Shown piece after piece: positions 4,268-34,642 of a stretch of 36,150 nucleotides of DNA. The stretch is from contig CASGHD010000050.1 of assembly GCA_949319575.1 (NCBI GenBank), forward strand, positions 1-36,150. Direction: 5' to 3'. The position numbers and the translations under genes are program-made. A model generated the notes under the pieces. It was given only the letters and a program-made list of their open reading frames with translations. It had not been told where the DNA came from and ran no database searches. Position 1 is the stretch's first letter, and every line of letters begins with the position of its first letter. This DNA comes from an uncultured Anaerolineales bacterium (GTDB taxonomy: Bacteria; Chloroflexota; Anaerolineae; Anaerolineales; Villigracilaceae).

Positions 4268-4690
4268 ATGAGCGCAGATATTGAGGCGATTGGGAAAGAC
4301 ATTGTTGATGCCGCTTATTCAATTCACAAGCAATTTGGTCCTGGTTTGCTGGAGTCTGCATATCAGGAATGTCACGTGTATGAACTTCGGAAACGTGGAA
4401 GAATTGTGCAGGCAGAATTAATTTTGCCTATTGAATATGATGGTCAACAATTTGACAAGGGGTATCGAATAGATGAATTGGTAGACGATAGGGTCATCGT
4501 GGAAAACAAAGCCGTAGACGAAGTCCATCCGATCCACATGGCGCAACTCCTCACATACATGAAGCTCAAGAATATCAAACTCGGCTTTCTGATAAACTGG
4601 AACGTGAAGTTGATCAAAAACGGAATCCAGAGAGTCGTTCTTGGTCTTGATGAGCCGCCCGCTCGCGCAGGATTTATCCAAAAACCATGA
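4268..4690 (+). CDS. GxxExxY protein (PD-(D/E)XK nuclease fold)
   Basis: A 140-residue protein of the GxxExxY family. The signature G26-x-x-E29-x-x-Y32 sits in FGPGLLESAY. A PD-(D/E)XK-like core follows: D69 in YRIDEL and E79-N-K81 in VIVENKAV, then the helix AQLLTYMKL and the strand KLGFLINWN typical of the family. Length is normal. An AAAAGGAG lies 6 bases before the ATG. The family is widespread and its function is not established; the fold predicts a DNA endonuclease. The gene is embedded in its own repeat family on both sides, which suggests that it could bind or cut these repeats or help them spread (inference). Confidence 0.9.
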   Translation: MSADIEAIGKDIVDAAYSIHKQFGPGLLESAYQECHVYELRKRGRIVQAELILPIEYDGQQFDKGYRIDELVDDRVIVENKAVDEVHPIHMAQLLTYMKLKNIKLGFLINWNVKLIKNGIQRVVLGLDEPPARAGFIQKP

Positions 4691-4699
4691 CGAGCAATT

Positions 4700-5151
4700 T
4701 TTACCGCCAAGGAAACCAATTAAAAACTTAGCGACCTTTGCAGTCTTAGCGGTTCAAAAACTTTACCGCCAAGGAAACCAATTAAAAACTTAGCGATCTT
4801 TGCGATCTTAGCGGTTCAAAAATTTTACCGCCAAGAAAACCAAATAAAAACTTAGCAATCTTTGCGATCTTAGCGGTTAAAGAACTTTACCGCCAAGGAA
4901 ACCAATTAAAAACTTAGCGGCCTTTGCGATCTTAGCGGTTAAAGAACTTTACCGCCAAGCGCGCGAAGTGCGCCAAGAAAACCAATTAAAAACTTAGCGA
5001 CCTTTGCGGTCTTAGCGGTTCAAAAATTTTACCGCCAAGGAAACCAATTAAAAACTTAGCGATCTTTGCGGTCTTAGCGGTTCAAGAACTTTACCGCCAA
5101 GGAAACCAATTAAAAACTTAGCGGCCTTTGCGATCTTAGCGGTTCAAAAAA
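4700..5151. repeat. seven-unit 62-bp tandem repeat array
   Basis: Seven head-to-tail units start at 4700, 4762, 4824, 4886, 4948, 5028 and 5090. Six are exactly 62 bp; unit five is 80 bp because of an 18-bp insertion resembling the GCGCGAAGCGCGC part of the upstream repeat. Each unit begins TTTACCGCCAAGG and ends CTTTGCGATCTTAGCGGTT, so it is itself an imperfect inverted repeat around an AT-rich centre (CCAATTAAAAACTTAG). Units differ by a few substitutions. The array ends 3 bp before the start codon of the helicase gene at 5155 and must form its 5' leader or promoter region. Confidence 0.95.
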
Positions 5152-5154
5152 AGA

Positions 5155-7686
5155 ATGTATAACTTCACCCCTCGCCCCTCCCAACAAGACATCCTTCGCT
5201 ACACAGGCGGACGCCTCGGCATTGCCGCTGTCCCTGGCGCGGGCAAGACGCACATCCTTTCCGCGTTGGCGGCGCAGATCATTCACAGCGGCGTGTTGCA
5301 AGACGATCAGGAAGTCCTCATCGTCACGCTCGTCAACTCGGCGGTGGATAATTTCGAAGCGCGCATCAAACGCTTTTTTGATAATCCCATTCACGCCCTC
5401 TACAAATATCGCGTCCGCACACTGCATGGGCTGGCGCATGACATCGTCCGCGAGAAGCCTGCCAGCGTGGGACTCGAAAATCGCTTCAGCATCATTGACG
5501 AGCGCGAGGCGGCTTTCATCCGCCGCGAGTCGGTCAATGCGTGGTTAGCGAATCACGCGCTCGATGAATATCTTGACCCAAGCCTCGATCAATCCAAAAT
5601 GGATTGGGTCAAACGCGATCAACTTCCCAATTTACTGGATTCCCTCGCCTTAGCCTTCATCCGCTCCTCGAAAGATCGCCTCATCACTCCCGTCAGCCTG
5701 CGCGCCAAACTCGACTCGTCTCCCACGCCCCTGCCTCTCGCCGAACTCGGTTACAGCATCTACGCGGACTATCAACGCGCCCTCGCCTATCGCGGCGCGG
5801 TGGACTTTGACGATTTGATTCGATTGGCATTGACTTTGCTCGAAAACGATGAAGAGTATCTCGCGCGCCTGCAATATCGCTATCCATTTATTTTGGAGGA
5901 CGAGGCGCAGGATTCGAGTCTGACACAGGAGAGGATACTTTCATTATTAAGTGGTGGTCGAGTAGGTCGAGGCGATAGCCGAGACCGTATCGAGATCACA
6001 ACGACTGGCTCCAATGTAGCCTCTGGTCTCGATACGCTCGCAACGAACGCTCGCTACTCGACCAGCGAGGTGGGAGGTAACTGGGTCCGCGTCGGTGACC
6101 CGAACCAAGCCATCTTCGAAACATTCACAACCGCATCCCCTGAACTTTTGCGCGCGTTCATCCAAAATAATCCAAGCATAGACATGCCCGAGTCGGGACG
6201 TTCGCAACCATCCATACTCGCATTGGCGAATCATCTCATTGACTGGGTGATGACATCCCATCCCATCTCCGAAGCGCGGACGGCGTTGTCGGTGCCGCAT
6301 ATTGTCCCTGTGCCAGAGGATGACCCGCAACAAAATCCGCCCGATGACCCAGAGGGTATCAAGTTCATTAGCAAGCGATATACGCCTGACGAAGAACTCG
6401 AAGCGGTGGTCAAGTCGGTGAAGGGATATGTTGACTCGATTTGGGATTTTCCCGATGACGATAAGCCGACGATTGCGATTCTTGTTCCGCGTAACCAGCG
6501 CGGCGTGGATGTGGTCAATGCGTTGCGTCAAAAAGGAATCGAGCCGATCGAGTTAATCTCATCCACATCTGAAACGCGCGCGGCGGCGGGATCGCTGAGT
6601 CATTTGTTGGGGTATCTGGCGGATCCAAGTTCGGCGCGGAAGTTGTCGAAGGCGTATGAAGTGTGGAGGAGGGATTGGAGAGAGCAGAGAGTAGAGAATA
6701 GAGGATTAGAGAATAGAGAAGTAGAGAATAGTGGAGTAGAGAATAGAGGAGAAGAGAGTAGAGAGGTAGAGAGTAGTGGATTAGAGAAGGGAGACTTATC
6801 AACTACTCAACTGCTTAACTATTCATCTGTTCTCTTGCGTAAGGTGGTGGATGTGGAAAACTTCGTCGCGCCGCAAAATGCCGACGACTGGCGATCAGCT
6901 GTCGGTGAGAATGAAGCAGAGCAAGTCATCCAAGAGTTGAGCGCGTTCCGAGTCGTCATCCAGAGATGGTTGAGCGCGGTGACACTTCCGATTGATCAAC
7001 TGGTGTTGACGCTGGCGCAGGATGTGTTCACCGAAGCGCATGATCTGGCGTTGGCGCATAAACTGGCATTGGTGTTGCGGAGCGCGGCGGACGATCACGC
7101 GGATTGGCGCCTGCCTGAGTTGACGGCGGAACTAGCGGTGATCGCCAAGAACGAAAGAAAATTTATAGGATTCTCCGACAACGATTCGGGTTTTGATCCC
7201 GAACGCCATCGCGGACGGGTGGTGGTGACGACGATGCACAAGGCGAAGGGGCTGGAGTGGGACCGCGTCTATTTGATGTCGGTCAATAATTATGACTTCC
7301 CTTCAGCGATGCCGAACGACCGTTTTATTTCGGAGAAGTGGTTTGTGCGCAGCGGATTGGATTTATCGGCGGAGGCACTGGCGCAGTTAACTGCATTGGG
7401 AGTCGGGTCTCCCCCTTCGGGGACTTCGCGATACGCGCCGCCAACGAACGGCGGCGCTACTCGACCACCATCGAATGAGTATGACTTCTACGAAGAAGGC
7501 GCGGCAACGTTGCGCTCGCGCTTGGATTATGTGAAGGAACGCCTGCGCCTGTTCTACGTTGGCATCACGCGCGCGAAACGAGATTTGATCGTGACGTGGA
7601 ATTCAGGCAGGCAGGGCGATGCGACGCCGTCCCTAGCGATGAGTGAGTTGATGGGGTGGTGGGAGTCGGAAGGCAGTAATCAGTGA
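5155..7686 (+). CDS. UvrD/PcrA-like SF1 DNA helicase
   Basis: An 843-residue ATP-dependent DNA helicase. Motifs in order: Walker A AVPGAGKTH (25-33), DExx box LEDEAQD (247-253), motif III VGDPNQAIFETF (from about 313), motif IV region ILVPRNQRG, motif V TTMHKAKGLEWDRVY (about 689-703) and motif VI RLFYVGITRAKRDL (about 799-812). The protein ends soon after motif VI, so there is no AddA-type C-terminal nuclease. Three stretches look foreign: a palindromic element at residues 267-304 between motifs II and III, a Glu/Arg/Asn-rich simple repeat at about 506-547, and a second palindrome at about 751-774. The start has no clear Shine-Dalgarno and directly follows the 62-bp array. The C-terminal residues come from an AGTTATCAGT-type simple repeat. 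Confidence 0.93.
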   Translation: MYNFTPRPSQQDILRYTGGRLGIAAVPGAGKTHILSALAAQIIHSGVLQDDQEVLIVTLVNSAVDNFEARIKRFFDNPIHALYKYRVRTLHGLAHDIVREKPASVGLENRFSIIDEREAAFIRRESVNAWLANHALDEYLDPSLDQSKMDWVKRDQLPNLLDSLALAFIRSSKDRLITPVSLRAKLDSSPTPLPLAELGYSIYADYQRALAYRGAVDFDDLIRLALTLLENDEEYLARLQYRYPFILEDEAQDSSLTQERILSLLSGGRVGRGDSRDRIEITTTGSNVASGLDTLATNARYSTSEVGGNWVRVGDPNQAIFETFTTASPELLRAFIQNNPSIDMPESGRSQPSILALANHLIDWVMTSHPISEARTALSVPHIVPVPEDDPQQNPPDDPEGIKFISKRYTPDEELEAVVKSVKGYVDSIWDFPDDDKPTIAILVPRNQRGVDVVNALRQKGIEPIELISSTSETRAAAGSLSHLLGYLADPSSARKLSKAYEVWRRDWREQRVENRGLENREVENSGVENRGEESREVESSGLEKGDLSTTQLLNYSSVLLRKVVDVENFVAPQNADDWRSAVGENEAEQVIQELSAFRVVIQRWLSAVTLPIDQLVLTLAQDVFTEAHDLALAHKLALVLRSAADDHADWRLPELTAELAVIAKNERKFIGFSDNDSGFDPERHRGRVVVTTMHKAKGLEWDRVYLMSVNNYDFPSAMPNDRFISEKWFVRSGLDLSAEALAQLTALGVGSPPSGTSRYAPPTNGGATRPPSNEYDFYEEGAATLRSRLDYVKERLRLFYVGITRAKRDLIVTWNSGRQGDATPSLAMSELMGWWESEGSNQ
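5955..6064. repeat. in-frame palindromic element in the helicase gene
   Basis: The ends are TGGTCGAGTAG and its exact inverse CTACTCGACCA. Subterminal arms GAGACCGTATCGAGA and TCTCGATACGC are also inverted. The element is read through in frame and adds about 37 residues between motif II and motif III, where family members are normally continuous. Confidence 0.85.
6671..6795. repeat. in-frame degenerate 18-bp simple repeat
   Basis: Imperfect purine-rich units of the kind GTAGAGAATAGAGGA repeat across 6691-6786 and are translated as ENR/VENSG/VESSG peptides. The unit length is a multiple of three, so copy changes would preserve frame. A reverse-complement relative (TCTCTAATTCTCTAATCTC) is at 2043-2070 in the other helicase-like gene. 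Confidence 0.8.
7405..7475. repeat. second in-frame palindromic fragment in the helicase gene
   Basis: It contains CGCCGCC/GGCGGCG arms around AACGAA and ends GCTACTCGACCA, matching the right half of the element at 5955-6064. An adjoining CCCCCTTCGGGGA hairpin is present. It encodes a Ser/Pro/Gly-rich insert before motif VI. Confidence 0.75.
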
Positions 7687-8935: not shown

Positions 8936-9090
8936 GTAACTGCTCAGCCTCGGAACATGTCGCTGCGAGGCGCTCTTGGTTTTGCCGAAGCAGTCTCCCA
9001 ATACCGAGAGATTGCTTCGGCGGGACCCCGAAAAAACATCGGGGCAGGCGAGCAAGAGCCCTCCTCGCAACGACATGCCTGAGCAGTTAC
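8936..9090. mobile_element. 155-bp MITE-like element with 8-bp target duplication
   Basis: Perfect 12-bp terminal inverted repeats GTAACTGCTCAG / CTGAGCAGTTAC bound the element. The direct repeat GAATCAGT flanks it exactly (8928-8935 and 9091-9098). The interior is palindromic and matches the repeat at 147-283. It has no coding capacity. GTAA termini and 8-bp duplications are known for IS66-family elements, so mobilisation by an IS66-type transposase is an inference; none is in the window. Confidence 0.9.
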
Positions 9091-10817: not shown

Positions 10818-11699
10818 TTAGTTTAAGGTGGAGTGATTTGTTAAGGTTGAGTCTACTGCAAGTGCATGGGGCTTGCAAGCCCCATGCACTTGCGCGGGCG
10901 TCAGGTAATCCAGCGCCTGGTGGGGACGGTCAAAATTGTAAAAGCGAATGTAATCGGCTAGCTGGCGATAAGCCTCCTTTGGGCTGGCATATTCATGCAA
11001 ATAGACTTCTTCGTACTTGATGGTGCGCCACAAGCGTTCTGTGAAAATATTGTCCAGGGCGCGCCCACGTCCATCCATGCTGATCTTGATTTCTTCACGC
11101 TGAAGGCGTTCCAGATATTTCGGGCTGGTAAAGTGGCTACCCTGATCGCTATTCCAGATTTCGGGCTTGGCTTGGAACAAGGCATTGTCCACCGCGGACA
11201 ACACGAACTCCATCTCCAAGGTTTGGCTGAGCGCCCAACTCACCACATAGCGAGAGTACCAATCCAGAACTGCGGTGAGATACAGCCACCCATGCTGAAG
11301 GCGAATGTAGGTAATGTCGATGCCCCAGATGTGATTGGGATGCGCGGCGGTCACGTTTCGTAGCAGGTACGGATAAATCTGATGTTGTGGGGCGGGTTTA
11401 CTCGTGTGAGGACCTGGAACCAGGGCAAAAATGCCCATTTCACGCATATAGGCTTGCACGGTGGGGCGCGCAACACCAAACTCGGGGCGCAACTGAACTG
11501 CGATTTTGCGCGAGCCGTAAAACGGGCAGGCGGTGTAGATTTCATCAATGCGCCGCTTGATCGCCAATTCTCGCGCAGAGGGCGGCACAGGCTCATAGAA
11601 CAGGCTCGAGTAACTGATCCCAAGTAGATCTGCCTGCGTTTTTAGCGGCATTTCTGGGTTGTTTTCTTCCAACATTTCCAGTCGCTCTGCTCTACTCAA
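10818..11699 (-). CDS. IS3-family transposase OrfB (DDE integrase domain)
   Basis: A 293-residue frame. An HTH_21-like N-terminal part (LLGISYSSLFY, then IDEIYTACPFYGSRKIA) precedes an rve integrase core with D in WGIDITYI, D in NSDQGSHF and E in FTERLWRTIKYE. The end HQALDYLTPAQVH is typical. The first codon of the frame is TTG at 11699; expression probably comes by -1 frameshift from orfA at a run of nine A (minus strand, about 11712-11720), giving an OrfAB fusion. The last 20 or so residues extend beyond the usual end and are encoded in part by a 36-bp palindrome. Confidence 0.93.
   Translation of the reverse strand: MSRAERLEMLEENNPEMPLKTQADLLGISYSSLFYEPVPPSARELAIKRRIDEIYTACPFYGSRKIAVQLRPEFGVARPTVQAYMREMGIFALVPGPHTSKPAPQHQIYPYLLRNVTAAHPNHIWGIDITYIRLQHGWLYLTAVLDWYSRYVVSWALSQTLEMEFVLSAVDNALFQAKPEIWNSDQGSHFTSPKYLERLQREEIKISMDGRGRALDNIFTERLWRTIKYEEVYLHEYASPKEAYRQLADYIRFYNFDRPHQALDYLTPAQVHGACKPHALAVDSTLTNHSTLN
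10858..10893. repeat. 36-bp perfect palindrome in the 3' end of orfB
   Basis: Both 18-bp halves (10858-10875 and 10876-10893) are exact reverse complements. It encodes QVHGACKPHALA, extending the transposase beyond its normal C-terminus. Probably an inserted palindrome rather than part of the IS. Confidence 0.85.
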
Positions 11700-11991
11700 A
11701 TTTGAAGCCAGATTTTTTTTTCAGCCAGGATAAGTGAGCACTCAATCGCCCAATCTCGGCATACAGTTCGTTGATCTGTTTTTCATGCTCGGCTTCGCGA
11801 ACGCGTTCCCCTTTGCGATCATCCTCGAAAAGCTGGGCAAAGTCTTCCAGGGCTTGCCTTTTCCATTTGTGAATTTGATTTGGGTGGACGCTGTTTTCGG
11901 TCGCTATTTGAGCGACGCTCTTGTCTTCTCGGATGGCTTCCAGCACAATCTGTGCTTTTTGATTAGCGGACAGACGTTTTCTTTTGGGCAT
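11692..11991 (-). CDS. IS3-family transposase OrfA
   Basis: A 99-residue protein with the HTH_Tnp_1 domain: LSANQKAQIVLEAIREDKS, VAQIATENSVHPNQIHKWK, followed by a leucine-zipper-like helix INELYAEIGRLSAHLSWLKKK. The stop at 11692-11694 lies inside the start of orfB. The Lys-Lys-Lys codons form the A9 slippery run used for frameshifting in this family. Confidence 0.93.
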   Translation of the reverse strand: MPKRKRLSANQKAQIVLEAIREDKSVAQIATENSVHPNQIHKWKRQALEDFAQLFEDDRKGERVREAEHEKQINELYAEIGRLSAHLSWLKKKSGFKFE

Positions 11992-12118: not shown

Positions 12119-12380
12119 AACCGCTGAGACAGCGAGGCATTGAGATTCTTTGGTTCTATCGTTTTTAACGGGAATCTTTTTTTTCAAACACAAAGGCTTG
12201 CATTGACGGTTCGTCTTTCGCTCACCGTGTCGAAATGATACGACGGTCACGTGGGAAAAACACTAGGAATCTAATCTCTTTTTTTCCTTTGTGTCCTTCG
12301 CGGCGAGGCGCTTTCCCGTTAATTACGGGAGACCCGATTCTTTTTTCTCCGTGACCCCGCGCCTCAGTGGCGATGTTAAC
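12119..12380. repeat. older palindromic unit split by a MITE
   Basis: AACCGCTGAG...GCGAGG (12119-12137) on the left and CCTCAGTGGC (12362-12371) on the right are inverted arms of one unit of the ACCGCTRAG type. Removing 12152-12335 and one copy of GATTCTTT joins them with normal spacing. Confidence 0.7.
12152..12335. mobile_element. 184-bp MITE (copy A) with 8-bp target duplication
   Basis: The ends GGTTCTATCGTTTTTAACGG (12152) and, inverted, GGGTCTCCCGTAATTAACGG (from 12335) form about 23-bp imperfect terminal inverted repeats. The direct repeat GATTCTTT flanks it exactly (12144-12151, 12336-12343). Nearly the same element occurs at 26795-26983. No coding capacity. GG termini and 8-bp duplications fit ISL3-family ends (inference). 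Confidence 0.92.
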
Positions 12381-12388
12381 AGAATCCG

Positions 12389-13159
12389 TTACAGCGAGAT
12401 CAACGCGCCAAAGCGACCGGTGCGCCCTTTTTCGGCGCGATGCGAGAACCAATCGTCGGTGTGGCAGGCGGTGCAAATGCCGGCGATCTCGATCTTGCCC
12501 ACGCCAGCCTGCTCGAGCAGGGTCTGGTTCGTCTTCCACAGGTCGAAATGGATTTTGCCGTTGACGGAGCGCAATACTTTTTCTGAATCGTCGCCGAATT
12601 TTTGCATCACTTGCAGGATCACGTCAGCGCCGATTTCGTAGTGATCGGGTCCGATGGAAGGTCCGATGCAGGCGACGATGTCGGCGGGGTTCGAGTTGTA
12701 ATTGGTTTTCATGGCTTTCACCATCGAGCCAGCCACGTCGCGCAGGGTTCCCATCCAGCCGGCATGGGCGACGCCAACCACACCCCGGCGCGGGTCGTGC
12801 GCAAGGATGGGCGCGCAGTCGGCGAAGCGCATGAACAGGCTGACTTCCGGTTTGTCGGTGAGGATCACATCCGCCTGCCGAACCGATTCGCCTTCCGGGC
12901 GCGGGGCTCGGGCGCACACCACGTCGGCGCTGTGCACCTGCCACACATCGAAAATGGATTCGGGCGGGCGGTTCAGGGCGCGGAAGGACAAATGGCGATT
13001 CTTGCGGACCCGGTCGAGATCGTCGCCTACCGTTCCGCCCACGTTGAGTGAAGCCCACGGCGAAGGGCTGGCGCCTCCGTGACGCGTGAATATGGCGTGA
13101 CGGGTCTGGAGGGAATCGAATTGAAAATAGCGAAGTCCGTTATGGACGGCGAAAGGCAT
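12389..13159 (-). CDS. pgeF: PgeF/YfiH family protein (polyphenol oxidase / purine nucleoside phosphorylase fold)
   Basis: A 256-residue member of the LACC1/YfiH family. Metal and active-site residues are present: H76 in WQVHSADV, C115 in RFADCAPI, H132 in VAHAGWMG, then CIGPSIG and the C-terminal CTACHTDDWFSHR. E. coli YfiH acts in peptidoglycan precursor quality control, and other members act on purine nucleosides; the substrate cannot be read from sequence. A GGGAGGGGAG lies about 9 bases before the ATG. It is last of four co-directional genes with ccdA and an L,D-transpeptidase. Confidence 0.95.
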   Translation of the reverse strand: MPFAVHNGLRYFQFDSLQTRHAIFTRHGGASPSPWASLNVGGTVGDDLDRVRKNRHLSFRALNRPPESIFDVWQVHSADVVCARAPRPEGESVRQADVILTDKPEVSLFMRFADCAPILAHDPRRGVVGVAHAGWMGTLRDVAGSMVKAMKTNYNSNPADIVACIGPSIGPDHYEIGADVILQVMQKFGDDSEKVLRSVNGKIHFDLWKTNQTLLEQAGVGKIEIAGICTACHTDDWFSHRAEKGRTGRFGALISL

Positions 13160-26736: not shown

Positions 26737-26794
26737 TAGCAAGAAATTTAACAACGGTCGTCCAGGCAGGACGACCGTTGTTCTTAAGGTGGTA

Positions 26795-26983
26795 GGCTCT
26801 ACCGTTTTTAACGGGAAACCCTTTTCAAACACAAAGGCTTGCATTGACGGTTCGTCTTTCGCTCACCGTGTCGAAATGACACGACGGTCACAAAGGAAAA
26901 ACCCAGGGAATTTCGGCTTTTCCCCCTTTGTGTGCTTTGTGTCCTTCGTGGTGAGGCTCTTTCCCGTTAATTACGGAAGACCC
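26795..26983. mobile_element. 189-bp MITE (copy B) with 8-bp target duplication
   Basis: Ends GGCTCTACCGTTTTTAACGG and, inverted, GGGTCTTCCGTAATTAACGG; flanked exactly by AGGTGGTA (26787-26794 and 26984-26991). The sequence is closely similar along its whole length to copy A at 12152-12335, including a shared interior block CAAAGGCTTGCATTGACGG. Confidence 0.93.
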
Positions 26984-27079
26984 AGGTGGTATAAATTGAC
27001 ATCTCGTAGCGGGACAGGGTTTGCACACAGCGCGCAGAGATTAAATACGAAGACCATGAACGCATCATGGTCTTGTTAG

Positions 27080-27151
27080 TAGCGGGGGCAGGACTTGAAC
27101 CTGCGACCTTCGGGTTATGAGCCCGACGAGCTGCCACTGCTCCACCCCGCA
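27080..27151 (-). tRNA. initiator tRNA-Met (CAT)
   Basis: A 72-nt cloverleaf with anticodon CAT in GGGCTCATAACCC. The three G-C pairs of the anticodon stem and the unpaired first acceptor position (T1 against T72, with GCGGGG/CCCCGC pairing after it) are marks of the initiator. T-arm GCAGG-TTCAAGT-CCTGC is intact. The CCA end is not encoded. Confidence 0.95.
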
Positions 27152-34490: not shown

Positions 34491-34516
34491 TGCGGGAATC
34501 TTACCACTAGAAATTA

Positions 34517-34549
34517 AGACCTAACAGGTTTCTGAAACCTGTTAGGTCT
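34517..34549. repeat. AGACCT-family palindrome after tRNA-Ser
   Basis: Perfect 15-bp arms (34517-34531, 34535-34549) around CTG. On the minus strand it follows the tRNA by 7 bases; the downstream T content is weak (TAATTT), so termination is uncertain. Confidence 0.85.
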
Positions 34550-34555
34550 AGGTAG

Positions 34556-34642
34556 CGGGAAGGGAGGGATTCGAACCCTCGGTGGACCGGAGCCCACAAC
34601 AGTTTTCGAGACTGTCCCATTCAACCACTCTGGCACCTTCCC
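34556..34642 (-). tRNA. tRNA-Ser (CGA)
   Basis: An 87-nt class II tRNA. The acceptor stem GGGAAGG/CCTTCCC is perfect with G73, the anticodon loop is CTCGAAA (anticodon CGA), and the long variable arm and T-arm GAGGG-TTCGAAT-CCCTC are intact. CCA not encoded. A TATAAT at 34661-34666 (minus) may be its -10. Confidence 0.96.

Follow-up and report, generated by a model that had tools for sequence, protein, structure and literature searches.

Two related short elements in an Anaerolineales contig

The window (the whole stretch of DNA analysed, 36,150 nucleotides) is one entire contig from an uncultured Anaerolineales bacterium, whose assembly, hereafter the own assembly, amounts to 3.65 Mb in 227 contigs and is 91% complete. 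Two short elements lie in it on the plus strand, copy 1 at positions 12152-12335 (184 bp) and copy 2 at 26795-26983 (189 bp). Copy 1 has frames with HTH_Tnp_1 and rve domains on one side (10818-11991), which we take to be IS3-like, and a Cu-oxidase_4 gene on the other (12389-13159). Copy 2 has on one side a 14-pair hairpin (26750-26782) that lies downstream of a cupin gene, and on the other a tRNA gene (27080-27151).

The two copies align end to end with 84% identity (BLAST), and their flanks are unrelated. Both begin and end with the same imperfect terminal inverted repeats, at 12152-12174 (plus) and 12313-12335 (minus) in copy 1 and at 26795-26817 (plus) and 26961-26983 (minus) in copy 2. 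Each is bordered by its own exact 8-bp target duplication, features to which no strand is assigned: GATTCTTT at 12144-12151 and 12336-12343 for copy 1, and AGGTGGTA at 26787-26794 and 26984-26991 for copy 2. A first-pass annotation, made from the letters of the window alone, had described the pair as alike over their full length, with common imperfect inverted ends and a different exact duplication at each copy, and all three observations are borne out.

Searches of reference collections with the window added little. Rfam returned no family at either copy, the only gathering-level matches in the window being two tRNAs; a search of solved structures gave two weak matches only; and among the 5000 records listed in a plasmid search, all fell, by band, below 60% identity.

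Other repeats are present in the window. A repeat array at 4643-5212 advances in 62-nt steps, with one step of 80 nt. A 69-nt inverted repeat pair (147-215 and 9008-9076), 90% complementary and 8.8 kb apart, is possibly another dispersed element, and a palindromic repeat, AGACCTAACAGGT..., occurs in two copies (2613-2655 and 34516-34557).

A dispersed family with 8-bp target duplications

The first-pass annotation had spoken of a two-copy family and had proposed searching the host genome for more copies. The count of two holds for the window and fails for the genome: a BLAST search of the own assembly with copy 2 gave 47 matching stretches, including fragments and core-only matches, and 24 near-complete copies could be delimited. 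A pattern for the terminal inverted repeats (at most three mismatches) matched the own assembly 61 times, as against 0 matches for the reversed control pattern. The 21 copies that were aligned show 79-97% identity to copy 2 at aligned positions (copy 2 itself excluded). Flanks vary from copy to copy, and the likeness ends at the element termini.

The same assembly contains four copies (L103, L056, L044 and L046, on contigs C14, C55, C89 and C113) of a sister family, whose ends are related and whose interior is different.

Ends for the 28 elements of both families were set from end-pattern matches and by eye. Among the 24 copies of the main family, 13 have an exact 8-bp duplication, four have one at 7/8 positions, one (L011) has one at 6/8, and six (L003, L004, L022, L099, L100 and L105) have no recognisable duplication; all four sister copies have exact ones. 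Over the 28 elements, the duplication is thus exact in 17, at least 7/8 in 21 and at least 6/8 in 22. By comparison, 756 mismatched pairs of left and right flanks contained no exact match, none at 7/8 or better and 14 at 6/8. Flanks common to the copies, or duplications generally missing, were named in the first-pass annotation as outcomes that would speak against transposition, and neither was seen.

ISL3-family insertion sequences with matching ends in relatives

The end pattern (at most two mismatches) is present in 32 of 101 genomes, own included. Among the matches listed, two end pairs lie 1295 bp apart, one in a genome of the same genus (G008) and one in a genome of the same order (G063). 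Each pair bounds an IS of 1295 bp with matching ends and an exact 8-bp duplication (GATTCTTC in G008, CAAATTGC in G063). The G008 contig corresponds, in the named genome set, to DYID01000003.1 of Anaerolinea sp. isolate TT109_57_62. Both IS encode an OrfA with Zn_ribbon_ISL3 and HTH_Tnp_ISL3 domains and an OrfB with a DDE_Tnp_ISL3 domain (Pfam); PF14690, PF13542 and PF01610 are all above cut-off in both, as the ISL3 family demands, with E 7e-78 for the DDE domain in G008, and OrfB is also above the cut-off for NCBIfam transpos_ISL3. We examined two further IS, one of 1291 bp on contig C204 of G004, with an exact 8-bp duplication (GTATATAT), and one of 1313 bp at L112 (JADGQF010000039.1); the ends of both resemble those of the MITE in the GGCTCT core and little more. 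The 8-bp duplication, which is of the same length as that of the MITE, is therefore exact in three of the four IS examined and 6/8 in L112.

The G008 IS appears to have landed inside a gene: by eye, the frames to its left and right, L087 452-1054 and 2325-2951, look like parts of one membrane-protein gene.

The MITE shares its terminal inverted repeats with these autonomous IS. The 5′ end of copy 2 differs at one of 24 bases from the right IS ends in G008 and on contig C29 of G013, and its 3′ end at one of 24 from the left IS end on contig C219 of G004, the C29 and C219 ends being single ends at contig edges. For copy 1 the corresponding counts against G008, C29 and C219 are 4, 4 and 2 mismatches; its left repeat is similar to the right IS end in G008 and G013, and its right repeat to the left IS end (the orfA side) in G008 and G004. 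When the sides are compared with G008, the correspondence is clear at the 5′ end (1 against 4 mismatches) and weak at the 3′ end (3 and 4); with G063 it is absent, the 5′ end of the MITE being nearer to the left IS end (1) than to the right (3). Beyond the ends, no likeness between the MITE interior and the IS was seen, and both window copies, at 184 and 189 bp, fall short of the length of OrfA as well as of OrfB in the partner IS and are too short for a transposase. The first-pass annotation had also proposed searching the host genome for an ISL3 IS with the same ends; IS with matching ends were found in relatives (G008 and G063), and no ISL3 transposase was found in the own assembly.

Two overlapping transposase frames in the partner

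A single transposase frame is usual in the ISL3 family, although not strictly defining. Such a single frame, open over 418-441 aa, is found in three ISL3 relatives that are more distant, whereas all four partner IS examined have two overlapping frames and so depart from the family's usual arrangement. OrfB identity to G008 within the group ranges from 52 to 80%. In all four, an A_AAA_AAA heptamer lies between orfA and orfB in the OrfA register (L087 1491-1497; L088 1799-1805, minus strand; L112 2968-2974; L119 703-709), and the OrfB frame, at -1 relative to it, stays open through the heptamer. OrfA stops 27, 27, 27 and 36 nt past the heptamer, and no ATG, GTG or TTG occurs in the -1 frame from the point at which it opens to 27, 57, 33 and 36 nt past the slip. 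The stretch of -1 frame that precedes any start codon encodes RGYP.V in three of the IS and has diverged in G004. Translated with the slip included, each of the four aligns with three single-frame relatives on both sides of the junction and through it, at 27-35% identity over 387-414 positions. A fold after the slip site that might act as a stimulatory RNA structure beats shuffled sequences in one of three cases (3 of 200 shuffles as good), and in the others 142 of 200 and 56 of 200 shuffles are as good.

The comparison of the four IS is good evidence, and suggests that the partner IS uses programmed -1 frameshifting. In the openly available literature, of which our coverage was partial, no report of frameshifting in ISL3 was found, and the helper IS offers a testable case of it in this family.

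Distribution of helper and MITE

No ISL3 transposase was detected in the own assembly by searches with the PF01610 DDE domain, OrfB or OrfA, in an assembly that is 91% complete and in 227 contigs. The PF01610 search was positive in 4 of 14 control genomes, and the OrfA search was run on the own assembly without a positive control. Sensitivity of the OrfB search was fair, because fragments of 25-37 residues were found in relatives, several of them at contig edges. The helper has therefore been lost from this genome, was not assembled or was never fixed there. More widely, 17 of 101 genomes contain an OrfB relative, and 24 of the 150 genomes searched in the family, the own genome among them, contain a MITE relative; IS and MITE were detected together in only four relatives (G008, G013, G017 and G042). 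A scan of the phylum for close OrfB relatives returned 2 of 400 genomes, both previously known.

A MITE family probably mobilised in trans

The elements have ends of about 24 bp that match the ISL3 IS ends of relatives, duplicate 8 bp on insertion and are dispersed in many copies. On sequence grounds, we consider it very likely that they form a MITE family, in an uncultivated lineage of Chloroflexota (Anaerolineales), and that an ISL3-family IS mobilises it in trans. The first-pass annotation had likewise pointed to an ISL3-type transposase that acts in trans on a non-coding element, and this is still the best reading. According to the mechanism that we propose, OrfAB of the partner, probably made via -1 frameshifting, would bind the MITE ends, move the element and leave the 8-bp duplication behind; the helper would then have been lost from, or be missing in, the own assembly. 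The interior, predicted to fold as a long imperfect hairpin, has in turn acquired a short dispersed repeat, and some few copies contain a second MITE as well.

A low probability attaches to the idea, compatible with this mechanism, that the MITE was once mobile and is today retained between genes for its structure, for instance as a terminator or an RNA hairpin. Both window copies are intergenic, and both are predicted to fold as RNA into a long imperfect hairpin better than nearly all shuffled sequences (0 of 200 as good for copy 2, 1 of 200 for copy 1). Inverted repeats, however, would lead any element to fold in this way, the copies have diverged to the extent given above, and two scans for terminator-like sites placed none wholly inside a copy, one weak site overlapping the left end of copy 2.

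Considerably less probable is movement by a transposase of another family with the same hallmarks; IS1595- or IS6-type elements, for example, have GG ends and 8-bp duplications. The lack of an ISL3 transposase in the own assembly makes room for an unseen helper of this sort, the searches having covered ISL3 only. Against it stand the ISL3 IS of relatives, with ends at most one base in 24 from those of the MITE and exact 8-bp duplications. That the copies are parts of larger duplicated segments, as the six copies without a duplication might hint, is most improbable, as flanks differ, no likeness extends past the ends, and exact duplications border 17 of 28 elements when no control pair reaches 7/8; for both window copies, their different exact duplications rule it out. 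Mobilisation in trans by an ISL3-family IS is thus the reading that we retain.

Insertions within the MITE

Three copies of the MITE, L096, L097 and L099 (contigs C172 and C17), are each split by a GTAAC-ended element, 177, 155 and 235 bp long, respectively. By eye, these nested elements are flanked by duplications of 7/8, 8/8 and 7/8, the last of them in a T run. A fourth GTAAC-ended element, L101 (176 bp), lies beside a truncated copy and has no duplication. GTAAC ends recall, we presume, those of IS66.

A much shorter insert occurs in most of the other copies. In the 21-copy alignment, which excludes the three copies with a nested MITE, one internal site is empty in two copies (L105 and L107), holds 23 bp in five and holds 41 bp in 14, such that 19 of 21 have the 23-bp or the 41-bp version. 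Both window copies belong to the 14, with the 41-bp insert on the minus strand at 12196-12236 in copy 1 and at 26837-26877 in copy 2. In two of the 21, L018 and L100, the opposite arm contains the 23-bp unit as well, and the local sequence there is identical, GTGTC^CTTYGTG. In the sister family, one of four copies has a 23-bp insert and the other three lack it.

The 23-bp unit is dispersed over several repeat families (L012, L013, L015, L018, L020, L022, L100, L056 and other loci). A core pattern for it (at most one mismatch) occurs 135 times in the own assembly, against one occurrence for the control, and many of the 135 end as in the nested GTAAC-ended MITE. The exact core pattern is found in 28 of 201 genomes of the phylum.

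Removal of exactly 23 bp restores an exact 7+7-base empty site at 12 of 37 distinct unit sites among the loci examined, whereas removal of 20, 21, 22, 24, 25 or 26 bp does so at 0, 0, 1, 3, 0 and 0 sites. Shifting the 23-bp removal by -1 gives 11 empty sites (the boundary base is often common), by -2 and by -3 two each, and by -5 one; shifts of +1, +2 and +3 give none, and +5 gives one. Because 6 of the 12 empty sites have the target GTGTC^CTTTGTG, they represent approximately three independent hosts. Within the unit, bases 1-2 and bases 16-17 are exactly complementary at 33 of 42 sites, whereas 2000 shuffles average 9.4 such sites and reach 20 at most. The same complementarity holds at 13 of 19, 20 of 27 and 21 of 23 sites in three genomes of other families (shuffled maxima 12, 15 and 19), counts that come from 17, 17 and 18 regions examined out of 56, 93 and 158 matches, chosen by a pattern that already restricts bases 2, 16 and 17. 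Sites in G187 share their flanks and are therefore not independent. In G130 and G170, where a larger palindrome often encloses the motif, the unit cannot be taken to measure 23 bp.

It is possible, though we hold it only tentatively, that the 23-bp unit is a mobile micro-element, ultrashort and hairpin-like, which some undescribed machinery inserts with precision into other repeats (at GTGTC^CTTYGTG, for instance) and which the MITE carries along when it moves. Part of the pattern could also stem from gene conversion or from recombination among repeats. A Y1/RAYT transposase as the mover is unsupported, the unit being found at 0 of 6 Y1 loci of the own assembly (3.2-3.4 kb each). No report of the unit was found in the openly available literature, covered in part, including by a search for its letters. 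Because stacked inserts record the order of insertion, the behaviour of this dispersed repeat can be tested by comparing filled with empty sites.

Comparison with known systems

REP elements inserted in palindromes have been described, also in a Chloroflexi species (PMC3733652). The 23-bp unit resembles the GTAG and CGTC families of REP elements treated there (PMC3733652) in being short and dispersed, in having complementary segments and in lying inside other repeats. Unlike those REPs, it shows no GTAG tag that we could see, and it does not flank a Y1 transposase gene as a REP of a RAYT system would, being absent from all six such loci.

The MITE itself is like ISL3-family IS in its ends and 8-bp duplication, and its partner IS has the Zn-ribbon, HTH and DDE domains of that family. 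It is unlike them in having no transposase, and the partner differs in its two overlapping frames, compared with one in distant relatives.

The closest parallel is a MITE of Microcystis aeruginosa, which is 187 bp long with GGCTCTTCG ends and 8-nt direct repeats and is ascribed to ISL3-family transposases (PMC11448079). The two are alike in size, in imperfect inverted ends starting GGCTCT and in 8-nt direct repeats, as well as in stem-loop folding, a matching ISL3 IS and a copy number of about 30 (PMC11448079). In Microcystis, identical copies are reported and isolates differ in their insertions, which demonstrates recent movement there (PMC11448079). By contrast, the family described here belongs to another phylum, its copies have diverged and its helper is seen only in relatives; moreover, the matching ends extend over approximately 24 bp here against nine in Microcystis, and the interior contains a dispersed insert. 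Because the Microcystis MITE has been published (PMC11448079), an ISL3-type MITE is a kind of element already known. What the present analysis adds is a well-supported ISL3-type MITE family in Chloroflexota, with a likely helper identified in relatives, as a second lineage beside Microcystis.
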